Shown piece after piece: positions 1-25,457 of a stretch of 64,000 bases of DNA. This stretch comes from a virus. Location: IMG/VR virus record IMGVR_UViG_3300031952_000002, positions 62,001 to 126,000 of that record; one strand, 5' to 3'. The position numbers and the translations under genes were made by a program. Under the pieces are notes generated by a model. It ran no database searches and had not been told where the DNA came from. It saw only the letters and a program-made list of their open reading frames with translations. How positions within the stretch are numbered: the stretch's first letter is position 1; every line of letters starts with the position of its first letter.

Positions 1-2161
1 GATGCCTACTAAAATGGACTAGATCTAGCACCTTAAAATTATCTTCAGCTTTGGATATTTTGTCCCAAACACCCATTGCTGCGGGGGTTTGAAGCGAGGA
101 ACCTAAAACCTCTTTACCGGAAACTTTTTGGGCATGTTGATACATTGCAGTTGCCAGCCCTTTTCTTTGATGTTCAGGGAAAACATTAGTCATACCAGGC
201 ATAAGTTTATTTTCATGGAGTTCGTGAGGAACAATTATGGTATGGCCAACTATCTGACCTTGTGGACTTTTTGCATAAACGTGAAGTTCATCGTGCTCTT
301 CCTTGTCAGACAAATCTTCATCTTGATTTGCCTTCCATTCATGAAAAACATGATAACCTTCTTTTCGCCAATCACCATTTTGGCCTTTTTCTAAGTCTTC
401 AGCTTTAGATATAGCTTCAGACACCTTGCGATTGTGTTTTGTGTTTGACATCACAGCCAAAACAGCTTCAGTCAGGTTTTGGCCCATACCTGCCGTAAGG
501 TTAATAGAATACTTTGTTTCCAATTTGGTCATAAAGTCGTAAAGTTCAGATTTTTCGGTAGGCGGCAGTGTAAATATAAAATCGCTACCAGCAAACCCCA
601 GGAAATCTCCTGCGTGCTCTTCTATAAAAGACTCTATGTCTATTTTGATGTGTTGCAGCTTTTTGATTTTGTCGGTTAGCTCTTTTGTGCTGTTAGATTC
701 CAGGGAGTCAACTATGAAATCATATATGTCCTGGAAAGACAAACACACGGTAACCGGTTTGTATTTTTTGTCTTTTGGGTGACTTTTTTCTAGGGACTTA
801 AAAAGCTCTTCGCTTGGCTTAGGCCAGCCAAGGTTTACCATAGTTTCTATGGCTATTTGCCTTTGTTCGGATTTACCAAAAGGACGATTTTTTTGACCCC
901 ATAAAGCATAAGCATCCTCTGATTGTTGACCATCAGTACCTCTAATCTTCTTACCAGTTAACTTTTCTGCCATTACATATGCCGATGTTGCTAACCCTTT
1001 ACGTTGATGTGTATCTTCGGTATCACTATTAACAATACCCAGATGTTTTCCAGTATGATCGTGTTCGAAAATATAAAGCCCTGCCAACTTACCGCTTGGA
1101 TGATAGGCATGAATAATTACGCCATATTTATTAACTTTAGGGGTAAGTTTATAGCCTTCTTTTTGCCAATCACCATTTTGACCTTTTTCTAGGTCTTCGG
1201 ATTTGTTAACAATACCTTTACGCTTAGCCATTTCTCCAGCCCATTTGCTGACGTTTCTGTCTGGATCTCTAAGGCCCATCTGAACCGTGGTTTCATCTGC
1301 ACCAGGATGAGACAATAAAAGCTTTTTTATTCCCCACTTAGGATGGTTCATCATAAAGTTAAGTTCAGCAGGTTTATAGTTTTTATGTTTAGCCATATAA
1401 GGGGCTGCTGCAGCACCATGAGTATGAGGGGCACCAAAGTCACTGTTAACTATGTCGGTAGTTGGGAACTTGGTGTTGTCTCTAGGCACATTTTTGTGGG
1501 GGCTTACAATAAATTCGTCTTCGTGTCCGTGACCGGCTGGATCTGTGTCAGGGTGACCTAACTCATAGCTGAACCAAACGTTCTTTAAAGGAACGTGCTG
1601 GTGATGTTCATGTTGACCAAATTGTCCTTGAGTTTTGTCGGCTATGGAATACAAAGCATGGTCATCTCCCCTTTGGCTTGGGGTTATGTTCATGTTCCTA
1701 GCCAGACGCAAATGGGGGGTACCATTAAGTTGGTCTACGGCCTTAGGGGCATTTTGGGTAATAGTGTCATGCAAGCTACGCTGGTGAGCTAGTAGCTGCG
1801 GAACAATATGAGGGTTTTGGGCTAGACCGGCGCTAAGGCTATCTGTAGTTATGTGACCAATCTTTTTCGCGGCATTGCCTTGTTGGTGATGACTCAAAAA
1901 CGCCTGGTCCATCATTTTTTGTTGGTCTGGCTTAGATGCCGAATAAGCGTCAGCATTTTCAGATCTGTGGATAGCGTACTTTAGCAAAAGAGATGAAGGT
2001 GAATGGGGAGAATGCTTATAGCTAGAATACATCTCATTTAGTGTAGCATTTGGCTTAAAGTGCGGCGTAGGTGCGCTAATAGGCAAACTAGAATGGACCT
2101 GTAGCCCAATTTGCTTGTCTTGGCTGGTACTAGAAGACAATGCACTTGGGTGTTTAGTCAT
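1..2161 (-). CDS. Multidomain virion-region protein, GNAT-like / palm-like / GNAT-like (C-terminus beyond window)
   Basis: The frame is open from an ATG at 2161 to the left edge (720 codons, no stop), so the gene is 3'-truncated by the window. Residues 1-320 are His- and Gln-rich and mostly helical-looking. Residues about 336-410 and 601-705 look like two N-acetyltransferase (GNAT) cores; each has a Q-R-K-G-L-A-T acetyl-CoA loop (386-392 and 665-671) and each is introduced by a near-identical EDLEKGQNGDW(Q/R)KEGY segment. Between them, residues about 468-580 read as a GGDEF/mCpol-like palm: a first strand ending near D478, a hairpin with GSD (525-527) where GGD is usual, and a last strand plus helix running from TAGMG (556-560) to KHNRK. 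The start overlaps the stop of the upstream gene by 8 nt. Acetyl transfer or nucleotide cyclisation is inferred from motifs only. Substrates are unknown. Confidence 0.7.
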   Translation of the reverse strand, partial: MTKHPSALSSSTSQDKQIGLQVHSSLPISAPTPHFKPNATLNEMYSSYKHSPHSPSSLLLKYAIHRSENADAYSASKPDQQKMMDQAFLSHHQQGNAAKKIGHITTDSLSAGLAQNPHIVPQLLAHQRSLHDTITQNAPKAVDQLNGTPHLRLARNMNITPSQRGDDHALYSIADKTQGQFGQHEHHQHVPLKNVWFSYELGHPDTDPAGHGHEDEFIVSPHKNVPRDNTKFPTTDIVNSDFGAPHTHGAAAAPYMAKHKNYKPAELNFMMNHPKWGIKKLLLSHPGADETTVQMGLRDPDRNVSKWAGEMAKRKGIVNKSEDLEKGQNGDWQKEGYKLTPKVNKYGVIIHAYHPSGKLAGLYIFEHDHTGKHLGIVNSDTEDTHQRKGLATSAYVMAEKLTGKKIRGTDGQQSEDAYALWGQKNRPFGKSEQRQIAIETMVNLGWPKPSEELFKSLEKSHPKDKKYKPVTVCLSFQDIYDFIVDSLESNSTKELTDKIKKLQHIKIDIESFIEEHAGDFLGFAGSDFIFTLPPTEKSELYDFMTKLETKYSINLTAGMGQNLTEAVLAVMSNTKHNRKVSEAISKAEDLEKGQNGDWRKEGYHVFHEWKANQDEDLSDKEEHDELHVYAKSPQGQIVGHTIIVPHELHENKLMPGMTNVFPEHQRKGLATAMYQHAQKVSGKEVLGSSLQTPAAMGVWDKISKAEDNFKVLDLVHFSRH

Positions 2162-3221
2162 CGTTATCATCCCCTATAATAACATGATAAGGGTCTTCTA
2201 TTGGGCCGTCACCTAAAGTAGGGAAATCACTAGTAACTTGCCAAGATGGATTGTTTGGCTCGATAGGGTCAGTCAAACTAGTGCGTGGCTTATACCCAGC
2301 CCATCTACCTTTGTTATTGGGTCCATTAGGCCCATCTTCTATAAGAACTTGTCCTGTAATTACTTCCAGTTTAGGGGCAGCATGTTTAATCCAGGTGATT
2401 GGTACTACACCAGTCAAGGTTATATACCTAGAAAAAACAGTGTCGGCCTGGAAAGAATTATTTCTTTGAAGTGCGCTAGATGAAACTTTGGACAGCTCAA
2501 AAAGGCGACCTTCTAGGTAAGACTCTTTATATCGCATCAGGCAATACATCACAACCTGCCACATCCATATACAACATCCAGCATCGCCATTAGCATGACA
2601 AGCTATGGTGTAGCTTTCATTAATAAAAGAGATTTCTTGGTCTAGATTCCATACACCAAATTTGGTTCTGATGTGAGACCTGGAAAAGTTCTCCCTTAGA
2701 TCAGGAGCTATTCTAAATGAATTGTTTCCGGTAACTTCGTATATTACATAAGCTTTATTGGTTTTGTTGGCTACCAGAAATTGGCCTTCTCTGATATTAG
2801 CCATGCTAACCGTGCTAGGCACAATAACTATACCAGTTACAGTGTCATAAGACTCTACGCTAAATGTAGGGGTAAGGTTTCTGGCATTTGTGACAATACC
2901 AGTTGGGTCAAATGGATCTATAAGCCTTTGGTCGCCCAAAGAGGTGCGGTCCATAGCTTCACTGTTGTCATTATACGAAACAATAATACATGGCACCGGA
3001 ACCGTGTCGGCTATACGGTAAGCCAATAAAACAGGGATTTCATTATTTAAAAACCAGTTAGAAGCAGCTTCTACTTCTTTGTATCCATAGTCCTTAGAAG
3101 CAAGATAATCTTGAGCTAAGGTGCTAAATATGTCTTCAACTATCCACTTGTTTTTACGCAAATCCGCAATAGACGCTTCAAGCATCGTTTTTATCAAAAT
3201 ATCACTAGATAAAACACCCAT
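2154..3221 (-). CDS. Unrecognised virion-region protein
   Basis: This is a 355-residue protein I cannot assign. I chose the ATG at 3221 (MGVLSSDIL) because it overlaps the upstream stop as TAATG and has an AGGGG ribosome site about 9 nt before it; an in-frame start 48 nt further upstream would overlap the previous gene. The N-terminal third is helical, the middle is beta-rich, and a Cys/Trp-rich stretch (HANGDAGCCIWMW) lies near residue 225. The last 60 residues are Pro/Gly-rich and end in acidic DDNDD. It sits in a tightly coupled run of unrecognised genes downstream of the connector-like genes, so a neck, tail or virion role is likely but unproven. Confidence 0.65.
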   Translation of the reverse strand: MGVLSSDILIKTMLEASIADLRKNKWIVEDIFSTLAQDYLASKDYGYKEVEAASNWFLNNEIPVLLAYRIADTVPVPCIIVSYNDNSEAMDRTSLGDQRLIDPFDPTGIVTNARNLTPTFSVESYDTVTGIVIVPSTVSMANIREGQFLVANKTNKAYVIYEVTGNNSFRIAPDLRENFSRSHIRTKFGVWNLDQEISFINESYTIACHANGDAGCCIWMWQVVMYCLMRYKESYLEGRLFELSKVSSSALQRNNSFQADTVFSRYITLTGVVPITWIKHAAPKLEVITGQVLIEDGPNGPNNKGRWAGYKPRTSLTDPIEPNNPSWQVTSDFPTLGDGPIEDPYHVIIGDDNDD

Positions 3222-4072
3222 TATGCGCCCCTGAAATAGTCTTCTAAAGACTTTACTATTTTGTCCCATTCTTTAGTAGCATAATCGTATGCGGCAGGAA
3301 TACTGTGAAGAGGTTTAACTTCGGGGTACATCCACCTTCCCTCTGCCTCATGCTTGCTACTTACAACCCTAAATGTAACTACTTCTTTTTTGACCTTACC
3401 TCTTTTAGATGGTCTTTGGACCACAACTCCACCTGACAGATAGTGAGCACCTTCGTAGTTTGGTAGCCCTAGAGCTTCAGCTTCATCAGCTGTACGCCCT
3501 TTAGACCGGTATTGGTATATGTTGTCGCTAGCCGGGTCATTTAACTGAGGGATGTCTTTTAGCCTGTTAACTATGCCAATCATTGGCATTCCATCGGGGC
3601 CTTTTTCGATTTTACGCATACTGACGCCATTTGCCTTAAGGGAGGCATCTATAGCTTCTCTCATACCAGAAGGAGTGGTCAGAGCGTTTTTGTCATGGCT
3701 AAAAGGTATGACCTTGAATTTACTGCCATCTTTGGCAGTCTTAAGTCCCGGACCTGGTTTAAGCAGCCAGTCTTCTGTTGCCATACTCACGGCTGGCCTA
3801 CCGCTCTCGACCCACTTAGCTGATTCATCGATTTCTACTACCCACATATTCTTAGAAACTTGTATCCATCTGATATTGCTACCATCTTCACCTAAAAATG
3901 CTTCTAGTGGGTAACCTTTTAAGTGGTCCTGAGCATACTTGATAATAAAAGCGTGGGTGGAAATAGAAAGGGCCTCTACAGCCCCATTCAATTTCTTTGC
4001 TACCTCTTTTTCTACAACACCTAGCTTATCAGCTATTTCTTTGTAGTTAGCCCTTATGGTAAAGTCGGTCAC
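3221..4072 (-). CDS. Putative head-closure or tail-completion protein (gp10-like)
   Basis: The 283-residue product has a helical N-terminus followed by a W-V-E-S-G patch near residue 86. Its C-terminal half reads FRVVSSKHEAEGRWMYPEV and ends in a long helix. This order (early helix, W-x-E-x-G, then an F-R-V-V-S strand and W-x-x-P) resembles the HK97 gp10 / tail-completion group that joins the portal-connector to the tail, as far as can be judged by eye. It overlaps the upstream gene by 4 nt (ATGA-type coupling) and the downstream gene by a shared TAATG. The assignment is inference; the gene itself is certain. Confidence 0.55.
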   Translation of the reverse strand: MTDFTIRANYKEIADKLGVVEKEVAKKLNGAVEALSISTHAFIIKYAQDHLKGYPLEAFLGEDGSNIRWIQVSKNMWVVEIDESAKWVESGRPAVSMATEDWLLKPGPGLKTAKDGSKFKVIPFSHDKNALTTPSGMREAIDASLKANGVSMRKIEKGPDGMPMIGIVNRLKDIPQLNDPASDNIYQYRSKGRTADEAEALGLPNYEGAHYLSGGVVVQRPSKRGKVKKEVVTFRVVSSKHEAEGRWMYPEVKPLHSIPAAYDYATKEWDKIVKSLEDYFRGA

Positions 4073-5290: not shown

Positions 5291-6406
5291 TCACCTGTAT
5301 TTTGTATTCAGCTTGTTTTTTAAGGTTTCGACAAAAGCTTCAATGATTTCTGGATCTGCTTTTGAACTAAAACTTATTTTATATCCACCAGATGTTTTAC
5401 TCAACCTTAAAAACGCTTTATTTTTGTTTTCTTGGGAAGTTACATAAAAACAAGCACAAGGGGAATATTTTGGGCCAGACTCGGACTTAGTAAACTCAGG
5501 AGTTTTGCAATGAGGGCAAGGAGCGTATAAATCTGATTCGCTTATTGTGATTTCCGGCTCTTTTTTCTCTAGTTGAGCTTTAGTAAGATAGTTCCTGAAA
5601 TAAGTGGCTGGTGTAGATGTAGGTTTGGCAGGTTTAGTGGCTGCGATGTTGAGTTTGTGTTGGATCATGGCCGGATTTTGTGCGGTATCGGCTTTTGTTT
5701 GCCCTTTGGTTTGCTGGGTAACTTGTTTGGTCATTGCCGCTTTAGGGTCTCTAGATGGAGCTGTTGCTTTAAGTGGAGCTACCGGTCCGTTTGGGGCAGC
5801 GTGGCCACTTGGGGCACCAGTTTCGTGCATTCCAGCTTTTTCAATCTTTTCTTTAGAGTCTTCCACCGCTTTAGCGGTAAACTTTTCGTCCATTATTCGA
5901 TCAATAACTTTACCAAGAATTTTAGTAACTTCCACCATTGCATTAATGGCAGTGTCGGACTGTGGCATAACTGGCATATGAATATCTGAGGCAGACATCA
6001 AGGCCGCTGGCAATTCACTAGAACCAGCTTTTTTGCCGTCATAGTCTTCAGTCATGGACATCAAATGTCCGCCAAAGGCTGGCAAAGTTTGGTTTTCAAA
6101 GGAATGGACAATATGTCCACCTTTTATGAATTGGGCAGTATAGGCATCTAGGCCAGTTTTATTGACTTGGATCTTTAGGTCGTCTAGGCCAGGATAAGAT
6201 AAAACCTTTTCGTCACCTGGGTGCATAGGCTTAATGGAAGATACTAGCCAGGACAATATGGTTCTAGGGACAGCTAAAATAGGCAGATACATATCAATAG
6301 GAGACAAAAGAGATTTGCTGTCCCTACGATACATAGTCTTACTTAGCGTTTCAAAGCCGTCATCGCCAAGCAAGCTTTTTAGTAGTTTTTCTGCCTTAGT
6401 GTGCAT
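5291..6406 (-). CDS. Unrecognised virion-region protein with C-terminal zinc-finger-like motif
   Basis: The 371-residue protein has a helical N-terminal 100 residues and a central Ala/Pro/Lys/Thr-rich linker (about 190-270). Its C-terminal module contains CPHCKTPEF and later YSPCACF, a four-cysteine arrangement suited to one zinc ion, followed by a small beta-alpha region. The gene lies 4 nt upstream of the palm-domain gene and 3 nt downstream of 6410-6805, in the same minus-strand run. I recognise no family. A nucleic-acid or protein-binding role for the zinc module is only a guess. Confidence 0.65.
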   Translation of the reverse strand: MHTKAEKLLKSLLGDDGFETLSKTMYRRDSKSLLSPIDMYLPILAVPRTILSWLVSSIKPMHPGDEKVLSYPGLDDLKIQVNKTGLDAYTAQFIKGGHIVHSFENQTLPAFGGHLMSMTEDYDGKKAGSSELPAALMSASDIHMPVMPQSDTAINAMVEVTKILGKVIDRIMDEKFTAKAVEDSKEKIEKAGMHETGAPSGHAAPNGPVAPLKATAPSRDPKAAMTKQVTQQTKGQTKADTAQNPAMIQHKLNIAATKPAKPTSTPATYFRNYLTKAQLEKKEPEITISESDLYAPCPHCKTPEFTKSESGPKYSPCACFYVTSQENKNKAFLRLSKTSGGYKISFSSKADPEIIEAFVETLKNKLNTKYR

Positions 6407-8271: not shown

Positions 8272-8672
8272 AAAGTAAACATCCTTTTGATTCTATCAAG
8301 GAAAGTCGGCTTGTTGTGTTCTGGTTCGATTTCCTTGTCTTCAAAGGCATTGTCTCTAATAATATGCTCTTTTTGATCTTCTCTGGCCCGATACTCTAAC
8401 CACTTATAAAAATCAAAAGAAAAATCAATGCTTTTAGGTAGCTGCAATTGAGTTTTAATTAATGGTTTTTCTTTATTAAAATGGGCCGCCAAATAAGAAG
8501 TACTGTTAAAATACCTCAATAAGAAAACTTTTGCTTCATCAAGATCTTTTGCTTTGTCTAGCATAAGGCTTATGGATGGGTAACTTTCAACAATTGGTTC
8601 CATGTCAGACCAGTTGTTAACTTTAAACTGTTTTTCTTCATTGCTCATGGTGTTTTTAACTATTAATATCAC
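8268..8672 (-). CDS. Unrecognised small protein in virion run, likely GTG start
   Basis: The 134-residue frame opens with GTG at 8672 (MILIVKNTMSN), preceded by AAGGAA about 9 nt upstream. The first in-frame ATG at 8648 lacks a clear ribosome site, so I prefer the GTG. The body is helical with a basic C-terminus (FLDRIKRMFTL). The gene overlaps the end of the kinase-like gene by 17 nt. No family is recognised. Confidence 0.55.
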   Translation of the reverse strand: MILIVKNTMSNEEKQFKVNNWSDMEPIVESYPSISLMLDKAKDLDEAKVFLLRYFNSTSYLAAHFNKEKPLIKTQLQLPKSIDFSFDFYKWLEYRAREDQKEHIIRDNAFEDKEIEPEHNKPTFLDRIKRMFTL

Positions 8673-9978
8673 CTAAGAATTTCCTTACCTTGTGTGACAT
8701 AAATGGAGTTAAATGTTTGGCCCCATTTGGCATCTTGTCGTCATGGGCAAGTATATCACGGAGTTTAAGTTTGTCTAGGTGTTTATGGTAGTCAGTTTTT
8801 TTGCCGTTGTCTTGCATAAGAGCTTTAGTTATATGAAGTTTGGCTTGGATTCCATTGTCGTTATGTGGAAAATTACCTAATATTTCTAACAATTTATCTT
8901 TAGGTATATCATTAAACTGCTCTTTGCCTGTAGCTGAGCCAACAGCTTCAGATATATCCCATGGATTATGAGTTTTTCCATGCAAAGATTTAGCTACGTG
9001 ATTTAAAGCTTTGTCTGGGGTACCATCAAGATATAGAACATTACTTTTGTTTTTTGGTTGATCTGCGGAAATATCCGAAAAGAATGGTTCATGCCCAGCT
9101 AAAGTGTCATTTGCCCATTTAGTCATGGCATCGTGTCTGGATTTATAAGAAGATACTATGTGATTTTTCCAGTCATCATGTTTAATGCCGTTAGCTTCAT
9201 CAATCAAAGAGCCTTTAACTTTTGGAGCACTATTTAACCACCAAGATGCTAAATTTTTAGCATGTTGGTGGTCTCTATCGGCCTCTGGAGTAAAACGATA
9301 TAAAGCACTGTTACGCGTTAAGTCTTCCATTGAGTTAGTACCACGATCATAACCAAAAGCGAAAGAGTGATCAATAGCTAGTGGACTGTGATACCCTTTT
9401 TGGTCTGGAAGATTATTGGCCATTATATTGCCAGAATGTCTGTCAATATTACCTGTAAGGTAGTCCATTACATTAATTTTATTAGCAACAAGTGGATCTA
9501 TTTGATGTTTTTGATGGTTATATTCTTCAGTATTATCAGCAAACTTGTGGACCATTACCGGCATTTCACCAATAGAAGTGCTTAGAGTGTGGTGTTTTAC
9601 ATCTTCGATGTTGTGGTGTAGGCCAGCCGCTTCGTACATTCTTTTTGTGGCTGAGGTAGCAAATCCACCTAAACCGTTGTTTACTTTAGAGTTATAAGGC
9701 TTAACCATAAACGTACTGTTTGGCGTTTTGTATACCAGCTTGTCTTCATACCCTTCAGCCATATTTTTAGGCTTGTGGTGTTCGCTAGAAGACACGGCTT
9801 GATCAAAGTCCGCATGACCGCCAGCAGATTGGGTAGGTTTCAGATATGACGCAGATTCTTCATTGTGGGCCTTACTAGCAAAATCAGTCAATGAGGGCTG
9901 GTCTAGCTTTTTAGCCAGCAACTGTTCAGTAGGTAAGTACTCAGGTTGAGTCCTTAGTGTATACCACGCCTTTATCAT
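8656..9978 (-). CDS. HipA/phosphoinositide-kinase-like protein kinase fold, apparently intact
   Basis: This 440-residue protein carries the signature of the HipA / PI3-4K-like / FAM20-like kinase branch. MVKPY has K93 as candidate ATP-binding lysine, and a helix contains E116. The catalytic segment GNIDRHSGN (176-184) has D179 as candidate base and N184 as metal ligand, and LAIDHSFAFG (200-209) has metal-binding D203. The residues needed for phosphotransfer are therefore present. Family members phosphorylate proteins or lipids; the substrate here is unknown. It lies between connector-like and small virion genes, so it may be packaged in the particle or act late. The first 75 residues are poorly ordered and the C-terminal 200 residues are helical and His-rich. 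Confidence 0.6.
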   Translation of the reverse strand: MIKAWYTLRTQPEYLPTEQLLAKKLDQPSLTDFASKAHNEESASYLKPTQSAGGHADFDQAVSSSEHHKPKNMAEGYEDKLVYKTPNSTFMVKPYNSKVNNGLGGFATSATKRMYEAAGLHHNIEDVKHHTLSTSIGEMPVMVHKFADNTEEYNHQKHQIDPLVANKINVMDYLTGNIDRHSGNIMANNLPDQKGYHSPLAIDHSFAFGYDRGTNSMEDLTRNSALYRFTPEADRDHQHAKNLASWWLNSAPKVKGSLIDEANGIKHDDWKNHIVSSYKSRHDAMTKWANDTLAGHEPFFSDISADQPKNKSNVLYLDGTPDKALNHVAKSLHGKTHNPWDISEAVGSATGKEQFNDIPKDKLLEILGNFPHNDNGIQAKLHITKALMQDNGKKTDYHKHLDKLKLRDILAHDDKMPNGAKHLTPFMSHKVRKFLGDINS

Positions 9979-10876: not shown

Positions 10877-11314
10877 TTACACCCTATAAGATTTTTGACC
10901 GCTAAGATGTATAGCCAGGTCTGTAGCTGTTTTAAAGAAAGTCATTTTAGTTTGAGTAGGGGTTAGGTTAGGTGGGGTAACCATGCTAATTTCATCTAGC
11001 TGCACCTCAAATCCGCCAAAGGAAATGCAGTCAGATGGGCCAACAGTTACTTTATAGATAGACTGGTCACCAGCAAAAGCTTGTACACCAACACGCTCAA
11101 AAGCATCGGCTTCATCTAAACTAGCAAAAAGAACAGTAACTGTGTTGCTGATATCGCCCTGGGGTATATAACGAATAAGCTCACCACTACAGTTTGTTTT
11201 GTAGAGTTGAAAATATAGATCCTGGGTGTTGGTCTTTTGGAAATGAAGTTCGTCTTCTACGCAATATTCATTAGGACCACAAACGTTGCTTAGGAACTTG
11301 AAATAATACATCAT
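10877..11314 (-). CDS. Unrecognised small structural-type protein
   Basis: This 145-residue, beta-rich protein (MMYYFKFLSNVCGPNEYCVEDE) has five cysteines spread along it and a helical C-terminus. It shares its first base with the stop of the upstream ClpP-like gene and is followed 2 nt later by the connector-like gene. It recalls the small cysteine-containing protein at 12679-13053, which flanks the ClpP-like pair on the other side. No family is recognised. Confidence 0.6.
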   Translation of the reverse strand: MMYYFKFLSNVCGPNEYCVEDELHFQKTNTQDLYFQLYKTNCSGELIRYIPQGDISNTVTVLFASLDEADAFERVGVQAFAGDQSIYKVTVGPSDCISFGGFEVQLDEISMVTPPNLTPTQTKMTFFKTATDLAIHLSGQKSYRV

Positions 11315-11910
11315 TACTTTGGCCCTTTTTGCATAGGACGATTAAACCCTAAAACAGTTGTGGAAGGTAAAAAACAAAACTCTGGCATACCAATATGGTC
11401 TACTAGACCGTATTTTTTAGCTTGCATAGGAGTCATAAAAAGATCTACGTTGCCTTGACCTTTTATTAATTCTTTCCATTCATCTGCACTAAGTTTGGTA
11501 TCTTCACCTAGCTGTTTAATCATCTTTTTATTAAGGTTATCTAGCATTTTAGCTGAATTTTGAAATTCAGCGTTTTTACCCCCTATTTCACTTAGGGAAA
11601 CTTCATGAACCATAAAATCTGATTCATGGGTAGCAAAACGATATCCAGCAGAACCGGAAGAGGCTAAAAGAGCACCGCAAGACATTGCTTTACCTACTAC
11701 AACAGTTGCTACAGGTTTAGAGGCTCTTTTAATAAGAGATCTCATTGCTTGGCAATTATGATATTGTCCGCCGTAACTATTTATAAATATAGTGATTTCA
11801 TTAGAGTCTGAAAAGAACTCTAAAGCATAAAAATGCTGGTAAAACTTTTCTACATCCTCATCTTCAAATTCATTTACCCAAATATAAGGCAGAACGTCTG
11901 GGGATGTCAT
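11314..11910 (-). CDS. ClpP-family serine protease (first of a tandem pair)
   Basis: This 198-residue protein is close to the usual ClpP length. It has the oxyanion-loop strand FINSYGGQ, the nucleophile loop GKAMSCGALL with S77, the strand FMVHEVS with H102, and D156 in VDLFMTPMQAKKYGLVD. The Ser-His-Asp triad is complete. Phage ClpP-like proteases often cleave scaffold or capsid precursors during head maturation, and this gene lies just past the capsid gene in the reading direction. It starts 8 nt after the second, divergent ClpP-like gene. The two proteins share the fold but are clearly different in sequence. Confidence 0.85.
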   Translation of the reverse strand: MTSPDVLPYIWVNEFEDEDVEKFYQHFYALEFFSDSNEITIFINSYGGQYHNCQAMRSLIKRASKPVATVVVGKAMSCGALLASSGSAGYRFATHESDFMVHEVSLSEIGGKNAEFQNSAKMLDNLNKKMIKQLGEDTKLSADEWKELIKGQGNVDLFMTPMQAKKYGLVDHIGMPEFCFLPSTTVLGFNRPMQKGPK

Positions 11911-11918
11911 AAAAACTC

Positions 11919-12713
11919 CTAGTCCAGTGATACTGGTTCACCTATGGTAATATTAGGGTCTGATTCGTCTTTTTGTGGGATTTTAACAATAATTTCGGTA
12001 TGTTGGTGCTCTTTAAGAGTTCTTTTTAAGAGACCTTCTACAGTTTTCTTTAGCTTAGCCTCAGAAGGGGATTGCTTAAGGTGCTCTTGACGTTTTTTCC
12101 TTAAATTGCCGCGCTTTACGGCTGGAACTAAGTCATCAGCTAAACCTAGATTCACTGCATCTTGGGCTGACATCCAGGCGTCTCTACCTGAACTAAGGAG
12201 TTGTTTATAGAATTTTTCATCCATGATAGAATTGTCAGCATAAAACTTACACATCTTGTCGTGTAACAGGTCGCCTTCAATCATATCAATCTTATTGTTG
12301 GTATATTTGTCTTGCATAAACGAGCTGTGTTCATGCAGCATTATTCTGGTGTTTGGATACAAATACCTTTCATCACACGCAACCATCAAAAGACTGGCAG
12401 CAGAACATATCCAGCCGCCGCCATAGAACTTGATTTGACAACTAGAGGCCAAGATAAAGTCAATAAGATAAAAGGCATCGGCGGTACTTCCACCGCTAGA
12501 GTTCATGTACAAAGAAATTGGGGCTTTGGGGCTATCATGGATCATCCTGTTCATGCCACGTATAGCTGTTTCCACAGTTTTGGAATTAAATGAAGTAAAG
12601 TCGTCTTCGTCAATATTGTCAGGGGAAATACCAAAATGAATAATACGATTTTTAGTGTCTATTCCATAGACTAGAAAGTCATCTATTGCTGTCTTTTCTT
12701 TCTGTGTCGCCAT
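11919..12713 (-). CDS. ClpP-family serine protease (second of a tandem pair)
   Basis: The 264-residue product has a ClpP core with the strand LYMNSSGGST, a nucleophile loop GGGWICSAASLL (S104), RIMLHEHSS (H127) and DAWMSAQDAVNLGLADD (D178). The triad is intact although the nucleophile loop is unusual (W-I-C-S). A 60-residue basic and coiled C-terminal extension (about 195-264) is beyond the normal ClpP end. Role in head maturation, or as a partner subunit of the neighbouring ClpP-like protein, is inferred from adjacency. It overlaps the upstream small gene by 35 nt. Confidence 0.85.
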   Translation of the reverse strand: MATQKEKTAIDDFLVYGIDTKNRIIHFGISPDNIDEDDFTSFNSKTVETAIRGMNRMIHDSPKAPISLYMNSSGGSTADAFYLIDFILASSCQIKFYGGGWICSAASLLMVACDERYLYPNTRIMLHEHSSFMQDKYTNNKIDMIEGDLLHDKMCKFYADNSIMDEKFYKQLLSSGRDAWMSAQDAVNLGLADDLVPAVKRGNLRKKRQEHLKQSPSEAKLKKTVEGLLKRTLKEHQHTEIIVKIPQKDESDPNITIGEPVSLD

Positions 12714-14016: not shown

Positions 14017-15426
14017 TTAGCTCAAGTTTTGGATCAAGACGTTTTTACGTGGCTCATAGCCAGCAAGTGTCAAGAAGCGGAAGTGAGCTTCTGGGACGCT
14101 CAAGTCAGCTACAGCCAGTTTCAAGCGGCTATATGGTGCAAGTTCACCCATACCCCAGGTGTCTTTCTGGACAAGGTGACCAGTAACGAAGCCTGGGATG
14201 CGGTTGCCCAAGTCAACAAACGCAGTCGAAGCTGGTGTGTCGATTTTGACGCGACCGATATACTTAGCGTCAGAACCATCGGTTTTGAAACCACGGTATA
14301 CGCTGAAGAACAAAGTGCCAGCGCCTGGGGAAGCGATAGTAAGGGTGATTTTTTGACCAGCAGTAGCAGCTTGGGTTACAGTAGAGCTACGTGGGGATTC
14401 GCCGCGCTCGTTAGAAGCGGTAACGAAGTAAACGTAGGTAGCAGCAGCCAAAGATCCGCCAGCAGCAGCAGCAGCCGTTGGAACAGCAGGAGCATTAGGG
14501 GAACCGATGGATGGACGCAGTGGAGCAGTTTTACCCGACAAGAATCGGCTGTCTTCCAGAGCGATCGTACCATTAGAAACCCACTGACGACGAAGGTCAG
14601 CACCGGAAGCGTCTTGAGCCGAACCGGCCAAGTGAATACGCTGGATAGAAGCACCGGCATTAGAGCCACCGTTCAAAGCAACAGCTTTGTTATAACCAGC
14701 AAGAACGATTGGGTCAACAAGCAGCAATTCTGCTTTACCCATGTTCATACGGCTACGAACAGCGGAATCTTCAATGATGCCTTGGCTGAGGGAACCGTTT
14801 TGGTTGAGGACAACCGACTGGTTCGAGCCGTAGGAATCAAACATTAAGTCTTGAGTGTTGAGCAAGTAGTCAGATTGCGTAACTTGGCACTCAACGCCAA
14901 GGATGTTTGGCAATTCTGGCATAGCAAGTGGGTTACAGTCAAACACACCAGCATTGCTGAAGTCGGCTTTTCCACGGAAAAGATCGAATTCGATGTCGCC
15001 AGCCAGTTTCATAGCTGCGTTTTCAGCTTCACGGTCGGAACCGCCTTTGCCGTCAAACGTGTCAACCATGTTAGCTGCAACAGTTACCCGACGAACGGTC
15101 GAGTAAAAGCACATTGGCACAGTTGCTCGGATGTAATCACCCGTGTCAACATCACCAATAGCGCCTTCGCGCATAGCCGTTCCACCGAAATGACCGTAGC
15201 TTAGCTGACGGTTAAATTGCATCAAAAGTGTTTTGACTTTTTTAGAGCCAAACATTTTTTGCAATTTAATGTGACTGTCATCGAAAGTCACGTTGTACAT
15301 AACCGAAGACAGATCTTCGATTTGAAGGGCCGAGCCTTGTACAAGCGTACTAGGAGCAGCATTGTACTGACCAGCCGTCAAGGTCTTGACGAGTGATTCT
15401 AGTTGTTGATTGAGATTGTCAAACAT
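14017..15426 (-). CDS. Major capsid protein with inserted Ig/FnIII-like domain
   Basis: This 469-residue protein has the features of an HK97-fold phage capsid protein. An N-terminal arm (residues 1-40) contains TLTAGQYNAAPSTL and QGSALQIEDL, followed by a globular shell domain with the closing AGYEPRKNVLIQNLS. Residues about 295-420 are a Gly/Ala/Thr-rich beta region (YVYFVTASNERGESP, FFSVYRGFKT, FVDLGNRIPG) that looks like an FnIII-like insertion displayed on the capsid. Codon use shifts to more GC-rich synonymous codons than the neighbours, as in a highly expressed gene. It is preceded by the scaffold-like gene and followed by a strong terminator. The arm is shared almost exactly with the prohead protease at 23790-25457. 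Confidence 0.85.
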   Translation of the reverse strand: MFDNLNQQLESLVKTLTAGQYNAAPSTLVQGSALQIEDLSSVMYNVTFDDSHIKLQKMFGSKKVKTLLMQFNRQLSYGHFGGTAMREGAIGDVDTGDYIRATVPMCFYSTVRRVTVAANMVDTFDGKGGSDREAENAAMKLAGDIEFDLFRGKADFSNAGVFDCNPLAMPELPNILGVECQVTQSDYLLNTQDLMFDSYGSNQSVVLNQNGSLSQGIIEDSAVRSRMNMGKAELLLVDPIVLAGYNKAVALNGGSNAGASIQRIHLAGSAQDASGADLRRQWVSNGTIALEDSRFLSGKTAPLRPSIGSPNAPAVPTAAAAAGGSLAAATYVYFVTASNERGESPRSSTVTQAATAGQKITLTIASPGAGTLFFSVYRGFKTDGSDAKYIGRVKIDTPASTAFVDLGNRIPGFVTGHLVQKDTWGMGELAPYSRLKLAVADLSVPEAHFRFLTLAGYEPRKNVLIQNLS

Positions 15427-16334
15427 TATTTTTTACTCCTAAGTATTTCGATTACTTTGTCTTTGCCTGCATAATTCAAAATGTAGTTATTAACGAGATC
15501 ACGTTCTGATTTGTTCAGTGTACCCGATCGGCACACGTCATTCAGACTAGCTTTCAAAGCTTCATCCGACATTTCAGCAAAGTTTGGCTGAGCTGCAGCT
15601 TGCGCGGCAGGAGCTTCGCTTTTTGAGATGTACTGGATTTCAGAAGTGATTGCTTTTCTTACTGGTTGGGCAAGAATTTTAACCGCTTGCAGAGCTTTAT
15701 CAAGGCCAGCTTTGAGTTCGTCATTGCTTTTCTTTAAGTCTGCAACTTCCTTGGCCAAACCATTGGTTTCTGATTTTTTCATAGCTGGTGAACTCATTTC
15801 ACCGCATTTGTCCATTTCTTCTTTAGCTATCCCAGCCTTAATTTGGCCGCCGTTTGCTTCAGGAGCTTTTTCGGCTTTGGAGTATTGCTGCTGGAGCAAT
15901 CCACGGATAACCATATAGTGGCGCTCTAGCTCTTCTGGAGCCATAGAGCTATACACTTGCTGAAGTTCTTCATCAGACAAATTCTGGTCTTGAGCAGGAT
16001 CTTGGCCTTCTTGACCTGGTTCCTGTTGTTCTTGACCTGGCTGTTCTTGTCCTTCTTGACCTTCAGCTCCTTCTGCCATTCCTTCACCAGCTTCTGGCGC
16101 TTCTTGTACTGAAGCTTGATCTTCAGCACCAGCAGCGGCTGGAGCTTGGGCTCCAGCATCAGCGGCGGGGGCGGCAGGTGCAGCTGGGGCCGGGGCAGCA
16201 GCAGCTTGGTCGGCTGGAGCTTCCTGGTCGTCGCCAAAACCCTTAGACAGATCTTCAGACTTTTTCATGGCTTCAGCAAAAGCTGAGTCAAGGTCTGCAA
16301 GAAGATCGTCCAGGCTCACCTGTACGTTTTTCAT
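15426..16334 (-). CDS. Scaffold-like / prohead core protein
   Basis: The 302-residue product is acidic and low-complexity. An N-terminal helix (VSLDDLLADLDSAFAEAMKKSEDL) leads into Ala/Pro-rich then Gln/Glu/Gly-rich tracts (about 35-125). A coiled-coil (VADLKKSNDELKAGLDKALQAVKIL, near 195-220) follows, and the C-terminal helical region is compact. This composition and the location immediately upstream of the capsid gene (sharing a single base) are typical of scaffold or prohead-core proteins that are removed by the head protease. Assignment is by context and composition. Confidence 0.65.
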   Translation of the reverse strand: MKNVQVSLDDLLADLDSAFAEAMKKSEDLSKGFGDDQEAPADQAAAAPAPAAPAAPAADAGAQAPAAAGAEDQASVQEAPEAGEGMAEGAEGQEGQEQPGQEQQEPGQEGQDPAQDQNLSDEELQQVYSSMAPEELERHYMVIRGLLQQQYSKAEKAPEANGGQIKAGIAKEEMDKCGEMSSPAMKKSETNGLAKEVADLKKSNDELKAGLDKALQAVKILAQPVRKAITSEIQYISKSEAPAAQAAAQPNFAEMSDEALKASLNDVCRSGTLNKSERDLVNNYILNYAGKDKVIEILRSKK

Positions 16335-17442: not shown

Positions 17443-20400
17443 TTAAGTAACTGGCTTTTTCCACATCATAAGACTGTTCTTACCAAACGGTCTTTTACTA
17501 ACTTTTTTGGCCGTACCGCTGTCAAAATTCTTTAGCTTATGGTAGTCGGTCTTAGTCCAGCCATTTTCTGGTGGATAGTGGATGTACATATGCTGCAGCC
17601 ATTGCGGGTAAGGCTTAGGGTCATTCATACCAGACATATAAGCTCTAACATCGTGTCCATGCATATACAAACCTTTGACACCGGCCTTTTTGGCTGTGTC
17701 ATTAACGGCTTGGTGCGCGGCATCTAACCACCCAGAAGTTAAGTCTTGGATTTTTTTAGCATATTTGCCAAACTCTTCTATTGAGTAACTTTTACCGTTT
17801 ATTACAATAGATTTATGGCCTTTTTTGGCTATATCATCCAGCTCTTTTCTTAGACCAGCCGAAAAGTCTGATTGAGTCTCTTCAATTAGCCAGTTTTCTG
17901 GATCTGATGTATCCACCCTAGCCCAACCTACTGTATAAGGACCAGTAGGGTGATCGCTGTATCTGCCAGATTCATTTATGTAGTCGTAAATGTTCTTTAG
18001 GTCTTTGTCTTCAATAATAGCTTTTTGGAGTTTTTCGTTAGCATTAACCTGAACTACTAAATTGTTTTGGTCAGAGTGTCTTTGGGCTCCATCCCATTTA
18101 GTGTAAGTAACTTTGTAATTGTCCTGGTTATTAACTATAGCTTTGTTGACTAGCTCTGGAGTCATTGTGTGCTTTGGTGATGCCAAAAAAGCGTCTTGTA
18201 TCTTTTTGTTGTTGGCTAACTTAGGAGCAGTCCGTTTAAAAGTGCCCCAATCCATACCTTCAGGTGGAATGATGGAACTAAGCTCCTGGAACAGGTGCCC
18301 CGTCTTAGATGCATTTACCGACGAAACAGTTGGTTGCCCTTTGATGTTTAGATTTTTTGTGTCAGGTATCCTTGGAGTAAGGTCGTTAAACATGTTGAGG
18401 CCATGAGGAACAACATTAAAAACTGGGCTCCACTCTTTTCCAACTTCAAAAACATGGTCATAGGTTGGATTGTTTCTCAGTCTGGTCCTTAAATAGTCAA
18501 ATTCTGTTTTTGTCAATTTAGGGTTTTGGATAAGTGTATGGGTGTCATAGCTACGGTCAAAAAGGTCAGCTATAGATTGTTTGGACAGCTTATCGGATAT
18601 TACTAAATCTTTTAAATTTACATCAGGGATATCGTAAAGGTTCTTATGGAAAAAAGCTTCCGATTCTGGTGAATCTTTTACAAATTTATAAGTTGACGGG
18701 TCAAGATCGCTTAGATGCTCTGCTTGAAACTGTGGGCTACCGCCACCAGCCTGAACTATATCATCAATAGCTTCCGGAAGCTGATCGATTTGTTTATCTG
18801 TTAAGTGAGGGGCTATTCCCTTCAAAGATCCAGTATAAAGATGTCCTACCGTTTTACTTCTTAGAGTTTTAGCCCATTGAACCCATTTGTCTATAGCTTC
18901 CGAGATATGACTTGGGTCCATTTTTCTGACTACATCGGAAACATGTGACATCATTTCATTAGCTTCTGATGCACTCATGTCTATGCCACTAATAACATCA
19001 GGTATGGGCATGTTGTCTGGATGAATCTTTTGGTGTCTTAGCAAAAACATACCGTTTGGTTCACTAGCCATCTTACGATGGATAGACGGACTAAACTCTG
19101 CATTTGATGCAAATTTTATATTAAAATCGGGATCATAGTGATTTTTTGTAGCTTCTAGAAGTTTATCGGTATTAGGACCTGTCAATTTCACATCATTGAG
19201 TTCTAGTTCTCTGTCAAAAATGTTTTCGTAAATTTCATCCGATATGCCGTCATTTCGGATATGATCGGCAATATGACCCAGAAGATCGTTAGATGTCTGA
19301 GCGTTTGTTTGGCTTTGTTTACCATTACCAGACTTTTGCAGATACTGGAAAAGGTAGTCCATGCTTTGGTCATACAAAAGTCTTTGTCTTTTATCTTTGT
19401 CGTTTACCATTTGGGAAACAACATGGTCCATAACTGTTCCCTGATTAGCTTTTTCATCTGAGGCGCTATTGATAAGTCTGGTTAAACTTCCTGCGTCAAG
19501 TTTGGAGTTAAGATGACTAGCTAGTTTGGTAGAATACTCTGGACCCATTTTGTCAGCATTTTGTTTAAGCAATGGATGAATATCGTCCCACTGCATTAGG
19601 TCTGCAGGCAAAATGTCTATGGTTTTGTCTACTAATTGGGCAAAACCGTCTTTACTTAGTTTAGAATAGCCAGAGTGGATTACACTAAGAGCCTGATTAG
19701 CGTTGTTTATATGAGGTATCAACTTAATGGCCAAAGAAGGGTTAATGTTTTTAGCTATAGGGCTGTTGTTATTAATTTCCTGAAAAATATCATTAAGTTG
19801 GCCAAATTGTTTTTCGTTAGCATTGGCAGCTTGGCTTGAACCTAGCAACTTAGATGCAGCAAAAGACTCCAATTCACTCTTATTGGGCAAACCTGTACCT
19901 TCCGAAGAACCTAAAAGGCGACTGGTTACATCCAGGGAAGTAGAATAAGACTTACCGGTAATTTCCCCAGGCTTGTTCATAATAGCTTCGGCGGTGTCTT
20001 CTGGGTTCATTTTGCCGCTAGTATGAAGCATAGACAAAGCTTTAGACCACTGGTCATCATCAGACATTACATTAAGAAATGACTTAAGCTGAACCGAGTT
20101 TGATTTTTTCTTTGTTTCAAGTATCTTAGGGATATCTTTGACAAATTTTGCTTGAGCTTCTGGCGAGGCAGTTCCATCTGGAGTGTGGCTAGCCATTTTG
20201 GCTGCTGTGCCATAGTCTCCTAGTTCTAGTGCTTTGTCGGTCATATGACTAAAAACCGGTCCTTTGGATGCTTCTGGCAATTTGTCTACTATATTAGCCA
20301 CTAAGCTGATTTTCTTAGGGTGTTTTGCTATAAATTGGTTAATAGCATCCATAGCAACAGCATGGTGCTTTTGTTCTGAATAGTTTCCTTCTACATCAGT

Positions 20401-23232: not shown

Positions 23233-23827
23233 TTTTTGCCCCGTAAACCATGTCGTTAAGGAGTTTGCGCATTAGCTTTTGATTGTTCTGGTCCAGTTCG
23301 CTAAAGTAAGCTTTTTCGATATGTGGGTCATGTCCATGGGAATAGCTGCCAAGTTCGGTCTTAGACATTTTTTGACTAGCCAAAGAATAGTCATTAAACT
23401 GCTGCTGTCTGGCGTTTCCTACATGGTCTTCAACTGGTCTTGGTATACCCTGAAGCTCATTTGGCATGTCAAGGTTAGCTTTGGATGCCACCTTAAGCTT
23501 GCCGGTAGCCAACAACTCATGGACGCGCTTGAACTCATCTTGACTAAGCATTCGATTATTAAGGGCAGCGGTTAGTCCATCGGAGGTAATTTCAATTGTG
23601 TCGCCATTAGTTAAACTATAGGTATGAGATTTTACATTAGGGTTGCTAATGATCTCTAAGCTGTCACTTTCGTCAATAGCGTTGATGCCTGCCATTACAC
23701 CTTTGGCAAACATCTTTTGGATCTTACCGCCAGTTTTGTCGTAAGTAAAAAGTAAAGTTTTACCATCAGTGCGAATTTCGGCCAAAGCTTCATTCGTATG
23801 AGGAGATTTGATTATCAGAGCCTGCAT
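23225..23827 (-). CDS. Unrecognised protein upstream of the giant gene
   Basis: This 200-residue protein has a beta-rich N-terminal half (MQALIIKSPHTNEALAEIRTDGKTLLFTYDK) and a helical C-terminal half with NDYSLASQKMSKTE. It overlaps the protease gene by 38 nt upstream and the giant gene by 8 nt downstream, so the three are probably translated from one message. No family is recognised. Confidence 0.6.
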   Translation of the reverse strand: MQALIIKSPHTNEALAEIRTDGKTLLFTYDKTGGKIQKMFAKGVMAGINAIDESDSLEIISNPNVKSHTYSLTNGDTIEITSDGLTAALNNRMLSQDEFKRVHELLATGKLKVASKANLDMPNELQGIPRPVEDHVGNARQQQFNDYSLASQKMSKTELGSYSHGHDPHIEKAYFSELDQNNQKLMRKLLNDMVYGAKND

Positions 23828-25457
23828 TGTTTAACTCTTCAAAAAGCTGGTTGAAAGTCCTGCCGTGAGACTTTTGTTTGATATGGTCCAAATTTCTCTG
23901 AGCTTTAGCGGCGTTAGCTGGCGATGCGCCAGTATTATTAATAAGATACACGTAAAGCTGGGAAGGGTCAAGCTGGTCTAGCCATTCTTGGGTCTGGGGT
24001 ACTAGCATATCTTCCCCTAAACCGGAATTTTCCTGGTCGTCATAATAGTCTGAAGGATTTCCGTTAGAAAACTTGTACAAAGGCCCGTTATTGACGTGGG
24101 TAATTTGGCCACCATTTGCAGCCGTGTCTCCCCAGGTCCTAGATGGATGACCTAGACACAAATCAACTATAGCCATTTGTTGAAGTCGGCCAGTTTGCCT
24201 AGCTTGTTGCAAGGCATTTTGGTAGCCTTCGGTGCCCATTGGCTCATAGTCGTTACAAGAATTGATGCCCAAAACCGTGTTGTATAGACTTGGGTGGTCA
24301 CACCATGCCGTATTTGGAGTAATATCTGGTAACTTAAAGAAATTCTTAGCAATTTCATGGTACTTAGTGGCGTCTTTGAATTTGTCTGCCGCCTTTGGGT
24401 TGACCGACAGTTTGATCAACATTGTGCCATGAGTAGGGCTATTATACAAAAACTTGCTATTTTTGCTTTGCAGTCTTTTCAGTTTTCCAGGTACGTCCTT
24501 TTTCATGTCTATCATAGGTACAGCCTGCAGGGCTGCATGAGCCAGACTGTCCTGGCTAAATGATGCATTGCCATTAGACAAAGCCGACAAACTAGGTTCA
24601 GTTTTCTTTAGGTGGAGTTCTTGGGTGACGCCTTCAAAGTGATCCAAGTAGTCATCACTTACTTCAGGTAAAGCTGCTTTGAGGATTGGTCGAAGAGGTG
24701 ATTTTCCATCCCAACTGGCTACTATCTTAGCAAGTTTTTTGCGTCTTTCGGGTGACAACCCGGCAAGACTTTCTCTTTGCAAGGCTGAGCCTTGAGTCAA
24801 GGTAGATGGAGCTGCATTGTAGCTGCCAGCCGTAAGAGTTTTCTTAAGGGCCAACACCGCTTCTTTGATTGTTTCTAGTGGGGTAACGGTTTTAGCTATG
24901 TCTTCAAAGATAGCATCTTCGACTTCAATAGTTCTATAGGAAGGTTCGGTGTCCCATCCCATAGTTTTTTCTATGTCGTCGCCTTCGTAAATATCTGATA
25001 TTGCTGACTTATTGCACGGACGAGCGGTTAGTGCAAGTCTTCTACCAACAGATCTCTTTAACTCATATCCTTGTCTTTCTAATGTGGAACCTTCAATAGA
25101 AAACCCAACAACCATTGGAGTTTTTCTTTTTTGGCAATATCTAAACATTGCCGCACAGGCAACCGCACCTGGATGTTTTTCATCATCAAATAGTTCCGAT
25201 ATTACATACACAAAAGGAGTTTTGACCTTGTCCCAAAACATTTCCTGGCGCTTGTTATCACAGTCAGACTTTTTCATTATCTTTTTTGCAAAAATAATCT
25301 TGCCAACTATATCTTCTGGTGAGTCATTTTGGTGCTCCCAGTTCACCAAACCACGACCTTCAACTAAGTCAGAGATGTCATGCCCTTCAATATGGAGCAT
25401 TTCTCCTGAAGAATCAATATGTTGCGATGCAGCAATTCCATCGATTTTTAATCCCAA
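23790..25457 (-). CDS. Prohead protease fused to a kinase-like (probable pseudokinase) domain
   Basis: The 555-residue protein begins at a TTG codon (25457) with AGAGG 6 nt upstream. Residues 1-160 are a HK97/T4 gp21-type prohead serine protease: GLVNWEH with H42, and VVGFSIEGSTLERQGYELKR with S120, followed by RLALTARPCN. Residues 206-227 repeat the capsid N-terminal arm (YNAAPSTL...QGSALQ). Residues about 325-550 resemble the HipA/PI3K-like kinase fold, with K349 in TMLIKLS. The catalytic segment, however, reads GHPSRTWGD (436-444) and the metal segment reads THVNNGPL (N456), lacking both expected aspartates. Proteolysis of capsid and scaffold is the likely first role; the C-terminal domain is probably a pseudokinase. 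Typical prohead proteases are about 200 residues, so the fusion is unusual. Confidence 0.75.
   Translation of the reverse strand: MGLKIDGIAASQHIDSSGEMLHIEGHDISDLVEGRGLVNWEHQNDSPEDIVGKIIFAKKIMKKSDCDNKRQEMFWDKVKTPFVYVISELFDDEKHPGAVACAAMFRYCQKRKTPMVVGFSIEGSTLERQGYELKRSVGRRLALTARPCNKSAISDIYEGDDIEKTMGWDTEPSYRTIEVEDAIFEDIAKTVTPLETIKEAVLALKKTLTAGSYNAAPSTLTQGSALQRESLAGLSPERRKKLAKIVASWDGKSPLRPILKAALPEVSDDYLDHFEGVTQELHLKKTEPSLSALSNGNASFSQDSLAHAALQAVPMIDMKKDVPGKLKRLQSKNSKFLYNSPTHGTMLIKLSVNPKAADKFKDATKYHEIAKNFFKLPDITPNTAWCDHPSLYNTVLGINSCNDYEPMGTEGYQNALQQARQTGRLQQMAIVDLCLGHPSRTWGDTAANGGQITHVNNGPLYKFSNGNPSDYYDDQENSGLGEDMLVPQTQEWLDQLDPSQLYVYLINNTGASPANAAKAQRNLDHIKQKSHGRTFNQLFEELNNAGSDNQISSYE

Follow-up and report, generated by a model that had tools for sequence, protein, structure and literature searches.

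The phage protein P0001 carries a minimal CRISPR polymerase (mCpol) palm between two GNAT modules, and this palm has serine in place of both catalytic aspartates. The window analysed here is a 64,000-nucleotide stretch, bases 62001–126000 of a virus record of 136,843 bases (G000), and the P0001 gene lies at its left edge. The original prediction of a palm set between two GNAT-like domains is confirmed as an observation, and its interpretation is supported with the refinements given below.

P0001 is a genuine open reading frame (ORF) that extends 491 bases past the window edge; the gene occupies 61510–64161 or 61510–64170 of the record on the minus strand (Table 1). Translation from the ATG at window position 2170 gives 886 aa, and from that at 2161 it gives 883 aa. 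The latter is the likelier start, because it is preceded by AGGGGA, a better Shine-Dalgarno sequence, and falls within the end of the neck gene upstream. Residues are counted here from ATG 2170 and thus equal those of the original prediction, which started at ATG 2161, plus three. Once the full gene beyond the window was obtained, the GNAT-palm-GNAT nesting held, and the strings that the prediction had described are present: VTVCLSFQD at 473, GSD at 528, KHNRK at 578, and EDLEKGQNGDW at 325 and 591. The complete protein consists of an N-terminal ART-like region, GNAT1, the palm, GNAT2 and a C-terminal ‘LVHxS..DP’ domain; domains were modelled separately. Its gene stands in one run with the head and neck genes, and the phage is large and related to Mx1. 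P0001 combines several effector domains in a single polypeptide whose gene lies among structural genes, and thus has the architecture of a polyvalent protein.

Table 1. Positions in the window of P0001, its domains and junction motifs, and neighbouring genes
Feature	Window position	Strand	Remark
P0001 putative effector polyprotein gene, window part	1..2161	(-)	complete gene G000:C1 61510-64161
Start of C-terminal LVHFSR..LDPS domain, aa 704-866	2..61	(-)	mostly beyond window
K-A-E after GNAT2, aa 707-709	44..52	(-)	
GNAT2 module, aa 588-705	56..409	(-)	PF00583 1.8e-6
K-A-E before GNAT2, aa 589-591	398..406	(-)	
Degenerate mCpol palm, aa 468-585	416..769	(-)	S478 and S529 at OptS D6 and D57
GNAT1 module, aa 314-440	851..1231	(-)	acetyl-CoA loop HQRKGLA
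K-S-E after GNAT1, aa 433-435	866..874	(-)	
K-S-E before GNAT1, aa 323-325	1196..1204	(-)	
N-terminal ART-like region, aa 44-272	1355..2041	(-)	homologue of part fused to intact mCpol in G028
Connector-like neck protein	2154..3269	(-)	syntenic marker
Neck protein, called gp10-like	3221..4072	(-)	syntenic marker
Second palm protein P0002, 405 aa	4069..5286	(-)	neck-position mCpol orthologue, then Q-rich linker and helical segment
Zn-ribbon-like neck protein	5291..6406	(-)	syntenic marker upstream of second palm
Major capsid protein (MCP)	14017..15426	(-)	55% identical to Myxococcus phage Mx1
Scaffold-position protein	15426..16334	(-)	K[SA]E-rich, 5 copies vs 0.69 expected
Mx1 putative prohead protease homologue	23790..25457	(-)	43.5% over 308 aa

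Profile searches and structural comparison identify the P0001 palm as specifically mCpol-like. Residues 481–575 match Pfam mCpol with an E of 2.1e-4, and mCpol is the only palm family that Pfam and NCBIfam report for this domain. The PF18182 score is 22.1 bits in a whole-protein hmmscan and 26.5 bits in a six-frame search (curated cut-off 26.4), and the NCBIfam match (NF033576) scores under its cut-off. A six-frame mCpol search of the whole record found two places only, the P0001 palm and the 405-aa protein P0002. We also built a phage mCpol profile from 26 intact or near-intact phage mCpols, leaving out both window palm proteins. Its sole matches among 144 ORFs were P0001 (25.0 bits) and P0002 (22.0 bits); the next best score, 6.3 bits, came from a shuffled ORF (best of 2000 shuffles). 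An AlphaFold2 model of residues 455–595 (pLDDT 87) forms a single palm domain with the OptS topology, and its best matches among solved structures are those of Panoptes OptS (Foldseek E 1.7e-6). The model superposes on OptS 9pd0 over 117 residues with a VIA Z of 16.6 and an rmsd of 1.9 Å, as against Z values of 14.8 for GTP cyclohydrolase III and ∼13 for other cyclases. Likewise, a profile of aligned phage palms retrieves OptS at E 4e-20. The original description, a palm of the GGDEF/mCpol order, therefore held and is narrowed to mCpol, with GGDEF identity weaker in both Pfam and the structural comparison; assignment of residues 468–580 to an unrelated fold, which would have refuted it, did not occur, since profile searches gave mCpol instead. 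The only direct relative of this palm among viral contigs lies on one near-identical contig.

The catalytic residues of OptS are Asp6 and Asp57 (PMC12657218). Asp57 is strictly conserved and required for product formation, which a D57A substitution abolishes (PMC12657230). P0001 encodes serine at both positions (S478 for D6 and S529 for D57) and so does not have the two aspartates expected of an active enzyme. Three registers agree on this placement: a MAFFT alignment with OptS, the gapless Pfam alignment (481–575 to 8–102), and the VIA superposition (model 18 to chain 0). More has changed than the first description, GSD in place of GGD, implies: Ser529 occupies the position of the catalytic aspartate, with D530 immediately after it, and Ser478 replaces the aspartate of beta-1. 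The ATP-selectivity positions are lost too, with I and Q at OptS S30 and N34, and the domain sits on a very long tree branch (8.95). Because both catalytic aspartates are replaced, the palm is probably a pseudo-enzyme. It probably descends from an mCpol cyclic-dinucleotide synthetase and is probably not itself an active cyclase, a non-catalytic role being inferred. The acidic D530 beside the lost D57 position could possibly, in principle, substitute for it.

Both flanking segments are read as GNATs, with support that differs between the two. GNAT2 passes Pfam (PF00583, 28.7 bits against a cut-off of 20.7), whereas the GNAT1 segment alone has no Pfam match and is supported by homology and a weak fold match. 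GNAT1 aligns with GNAT2 at a score of 174 (shuffles 31 ± 6) and is 46% identical to a phage GNAT above the Pfam cut-off; the homologous L111 and L127 exceed that cut-off, and Foldseek matches its model to chains of the GNAT fold at an E of only ∼1e-2. The second outcome that would have refuted the prediction, flanks that do not match GNAT, was not observed, the match of GNAT1 being the weaker one. The acetyl-CoA loop (Q/R-x-x-G-x-G/A), proposed as a check, is retained in both cores as HQRKGLA, at 388 and 667, and its R, G and A are invariant in the GNAT alignment. GNAT modules of the P0001 type, which start G-D-W-Q/K-K-E-G-Y, are partnered in relatives with prohead protease, HipA-like kinase, NUDIX and LVHYS-domain proteins. 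Since the module recurs with many partners, the near-identical boxes mark module starts. What had been taken for a tandem GNAT duplication is thereby refined to two copies of a mobile GNAT module, and the EDLEKGQNGDW box combines the start of the module with a K[SA]E junction. Only the window phage and one near-identical contig showed the exact GNAT-mCpol-GNAT order; the proposed search of other phages for it returned GNAT-GNAT-mCpol, mCpol-GNAT-GNAT and mCpol-ART instead.

The ART assignment of the P0001 N-terminus rests on motif resemblance only (HLRLAR, SYS/LYS and EDEFIV). This region is ∼31–34% identical to L113. A Pfam scan of the N-terminus and its homologue gave no match, and both ART assignments are no more than possible, at the level of motifs. 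The C-terminal LVHFSR..LDPS domain is also found in other phage multi-domain proteins, and a search of solved structures with its profile returned nothing credible. An AP endonuclease match at residues 755–845 was rejected, as the profile of this domain does not support it.

The prediction had also pointed to another palm-domain protein in the same gene run, and this claim held: P0002 is a second degenerate mCpol. Its residues 11–114 match Pfam mCpol more weakly than does P0001; it has phenylalanine at D6 and keeps D57. P0002 occupies the conserved neck mCpol position in an order that is fixed in ∼30 related loci: virion protein, Zn-ribbon-like protein, mCpol, gp10-like protein and connector (some loci are truncated at one end). 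The neighbours of the window palm genes are structural genes (no dedicated OptE or S-2TM-beta search was made). A recent tandem duplication of P0002 into P0001 is not supported; the two lie apart in the tree, although both branches are too long for confidence. The tree, built from 110-residue domains with very long branches, leaves the origin of the P0001 palm unresolved.

Several other genes of the record were also noted. A 440-aa head-run protein (window 8656–9978) has weak PI3/PI4-kinase and HipA-like matches and is possibly another packaged effector, and a 1929-aa head-run protein (17443–23232) contains many short repeat-like helical segments and no Pfam family. Three ORFs of the record appear ClpP/S14-peptidase-like by eye: window 11314–11910 and 11919–12713, which are adjacent in the head run, and L153 15976–16839. 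The N-terminus of the MCP and the protease-like protein (Table 1) share a near-identical segment, TAGxYNAAPSTLxQGSALQxE. Mx1 and the protease fusions of relatives have this segment too; it is perhaps a common cleavage or targeting tag.

Portal, terminase and MCP searches place the window phage close to Myxococcus phage Mx1. We gathered ∼70 viral contigs from relatives using MCP and sheath profiles; these are metagenomic, many are fragmentary, and their hosts are unidentified. An mCpol match occurs in 37 of the 50 records searched, 33 of them above the Pfam cut-off (best 73.6 bits). We aligned 39 phage mCpol domains, excluding one GGDEF match and keeping two near-duplicates; 28 encode aspartate at both catalytic positions (DxD..GGDE). 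On the basis of this conserved motif alone, the neck-position mCpol of most sister phages is predicted to be an active cyclase. The neck copy is degenerate in the window phage, Mx1 (WNM70340, D6 and D57 both lost), G004 and others, yet its synteny is kept. Unlike its neck copy, a second mCpol of G004 is intact: P0005 is a 480-aa GNAT-GNAT-mCpol protein with DGDNIG and GGDD motifs (70.1 bits to PF18182). G045 encodes nearly the same mCpol with another N-terminus (X-mCpol), G022 (L090) places mCpol before two GNATs, and G028 joins an intact mCpol to a homologue of the P0001 N-terminus (L092/L113, mCpol-ART-like). A pattern search with a closer mCpol subset returned one MAG contig besides 14 viral contigs. 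In a contig binned with a deltaproteobacterial MAG, mCpol again occupies the neck position, and that MAG harbours two phages of the group. No Panoptes or mCpol was found in 57 other genomes of that MAG’s phylum, the only host-candidate phylum (58 genomes only).

Other enzyme-like domains were seen in these relatives. G031 has a GGDEF domain within a 1473-aa open frame (L146). In G004, the gene beside the GNAT-GNAT-mCpol gene (L136:3289–4353) has a weak Pfam S-adenosylmethionine lyase match (PF23780, E 1.3e-4), and a neck-region protein (L135:12985–15582) has an N-terminal NUDIX domain (E 1.1e-16) and then further KSE-bounded domains.

The K[SA]E motif marks the boundaries of the GNAT modules. 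P0001 contains five copies (shuffle p 0.001), four of which lie at GNAT edges (323, 433, 589 and 707). The fifth (540) is inside a palm helix, so that some sites either mark no junction or are left uncut. The MCP also has a copy in its interior, another point against the cleavage reading given below. Head/neck ORFs of the record contain 22 copies where 7.8 are expected; reordered versions of the motif are no commoner than expected (2, 8 and 7), and tail ORFs contain 3 against 5.1. Scaffold-position ORFs of 34 relatives hold 185 copies against 32.4 expected, again with reordered motifs at or below expectation. Prohead proteases usually act on scaffolds. The prohead protease of SPN3US cuts after A-X-E in packaged proteins, e.g. 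gp245 (PMC10052503). We infer that K[SA]E is the prohead protease cleavage signal of this phage group, but have not shown it; there are no proteomics.

On balance, and with moderate confidence, we favor the view that P0001 is a polyvalent effector polyprotein that is packaged, is cut up by a protease and includes an mCpol pseudo-enzyme. P0001 would be made alongside the head and neck proteins and would probably be packaged into the procapsid. The prohead protease would then cut it at K[SA]E into the ART-like region, GNAT1, the mCpol-like palm, GNAT2 and the C-terminal domain, and the freed pieces would be injected along with the DNA. Both GNATs, with their loop kept, would most likely acetylate host proteins, and the palm, with no cyclase chemistry, would most likely serve for dimerisation or nucleotide binding. 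The domain identities, catalytic residue loss, synteny, modular recombination and motif enrichment are shown; packaging, cleavage, injection, acetylation targets and the non-catalytic role are inferred.

A bolder reading remains possible. Large phages may package and inject mCpol synthetases, active in most, together with GNAT/ART-like effectors, and thereby either feed host nucleotide-signalling immunity or blunt it, e.g. by holding a Panoptes-type effector inactive as other signals run down. The degenerate copies of the window phage would bind without synthesis or be repurposed. That the phages counter Panoptes-type immunity is an appealing idea without direct evidence: the sole host-candidate phylum yielded no bacterial mCpol in the 57 further genomes.

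Two further alternatives seem unlikely. In the first, the palm binds its ligand without catalysis, as a cyclic-nucleotide or NTP sponge against CBASS, type III CRISPR or Panoptes-type signalling. The model preserves the OptS substrate-site fold, the domain is kept in an effector context with its catalytic residues gone, and phage sponges such as Acb2 are known (PMC12657218). However, the ATP-selectivity positions are not kept, the branch length suggests a relaxed site, and the host-candidate phylum yielded no Panoptes or mCpol in the 57 other genomes. In the second, the palm fold of this phage subclade now serves only assembly or dimerisation and is unconnected with signalling. Degenerate neck mCpols (window phage, Mx1, G004 and others) are indeed still syntenic, and the neck mCpol precedes a conserved helical segment. 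Against this, P0001 is multi-domain and accessory, not one of the core neck proteins, and most relatives keep DxD..GGDE, implying selection for catalysis. That the palm is still an active cyclase, with D530 (adjoining the hairpin position) and D481 (near the beta-1 position) replacing the lost aspartates, is very unlikely, as OptS D57A gives no product (PMC12657230) and both catalytic positions are serine in alignment and structural register.

The favored polyprotein reading bears on several known systems. mCpol, described in 2025, is the half that makes the signal in the Panoptes anti-phage system of bacteria and archaea (PMC12657218, PMC12657230). Known only from anti-phage defences, it is here syntenic across a phage group, with mostly intact catalytic residues, and is shuffled into GNAT/ART-like effectors. 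Whether phages make OptS-type signals, and to what end, thus becomes testable, and, to judge by the K[SA]E pattern, prohead proteases may release single effectors from a packaged polyprotein. We found no description of phage-borne mCpol in the open literature searched, though absence there is not proof of novelty. Phage mCpols go unmentioned in the relevant passages of both Panoptes papers (PMC12657218, PMC12657230). Comparison of P0005, P0001, P0002 and a typical neck mCpol protein with PHROG gave no family match as mCpol.

Phage GGDEF cyclases belong to the same superfamily as the P0001 palm and likewise occur in the head gene run. The Mx1 example, WNM70324 (L007:13174–13905), is annotated as a nucleotide cyclase; it differs in its canonical NGGDEF site (RNGGDEF) and its sequence, and is a separate gene between the prohead protease and MCP. 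T4 internal proteins and SPN3US ejection proteins are packaged and cut after a Glu motif, with multiple motif copies in propeptides (PMC10052503); in P0001, where cleavage is inferred, the motif would separate several effector domains. Injected polyvalent proteins with GNAT, ART and GGDEF domains were described in 2017 (Iyer, Burroughs and Aravind, PMC5512222). P0001 resembles them in being large, multi-domain and near structural genes, with GNAT and ART-like parts; it differs in its mCpol, which is absent from that paper’s text, and in modules bounded by the K[SA]E that recurs in the scaffold-position protein. P0001 likely belongs to this kind, with mCpol as a new domain, its packaging and injection being inferred. 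Finally, Panoptes OptS shares its fold with the P0001 palm and its intact catalytic motif with the sister phages. The P0001 palm, by contrast, is encoded among head and neck genes, is fused to GNAT/ART-like modules and has serine for both aspartates.
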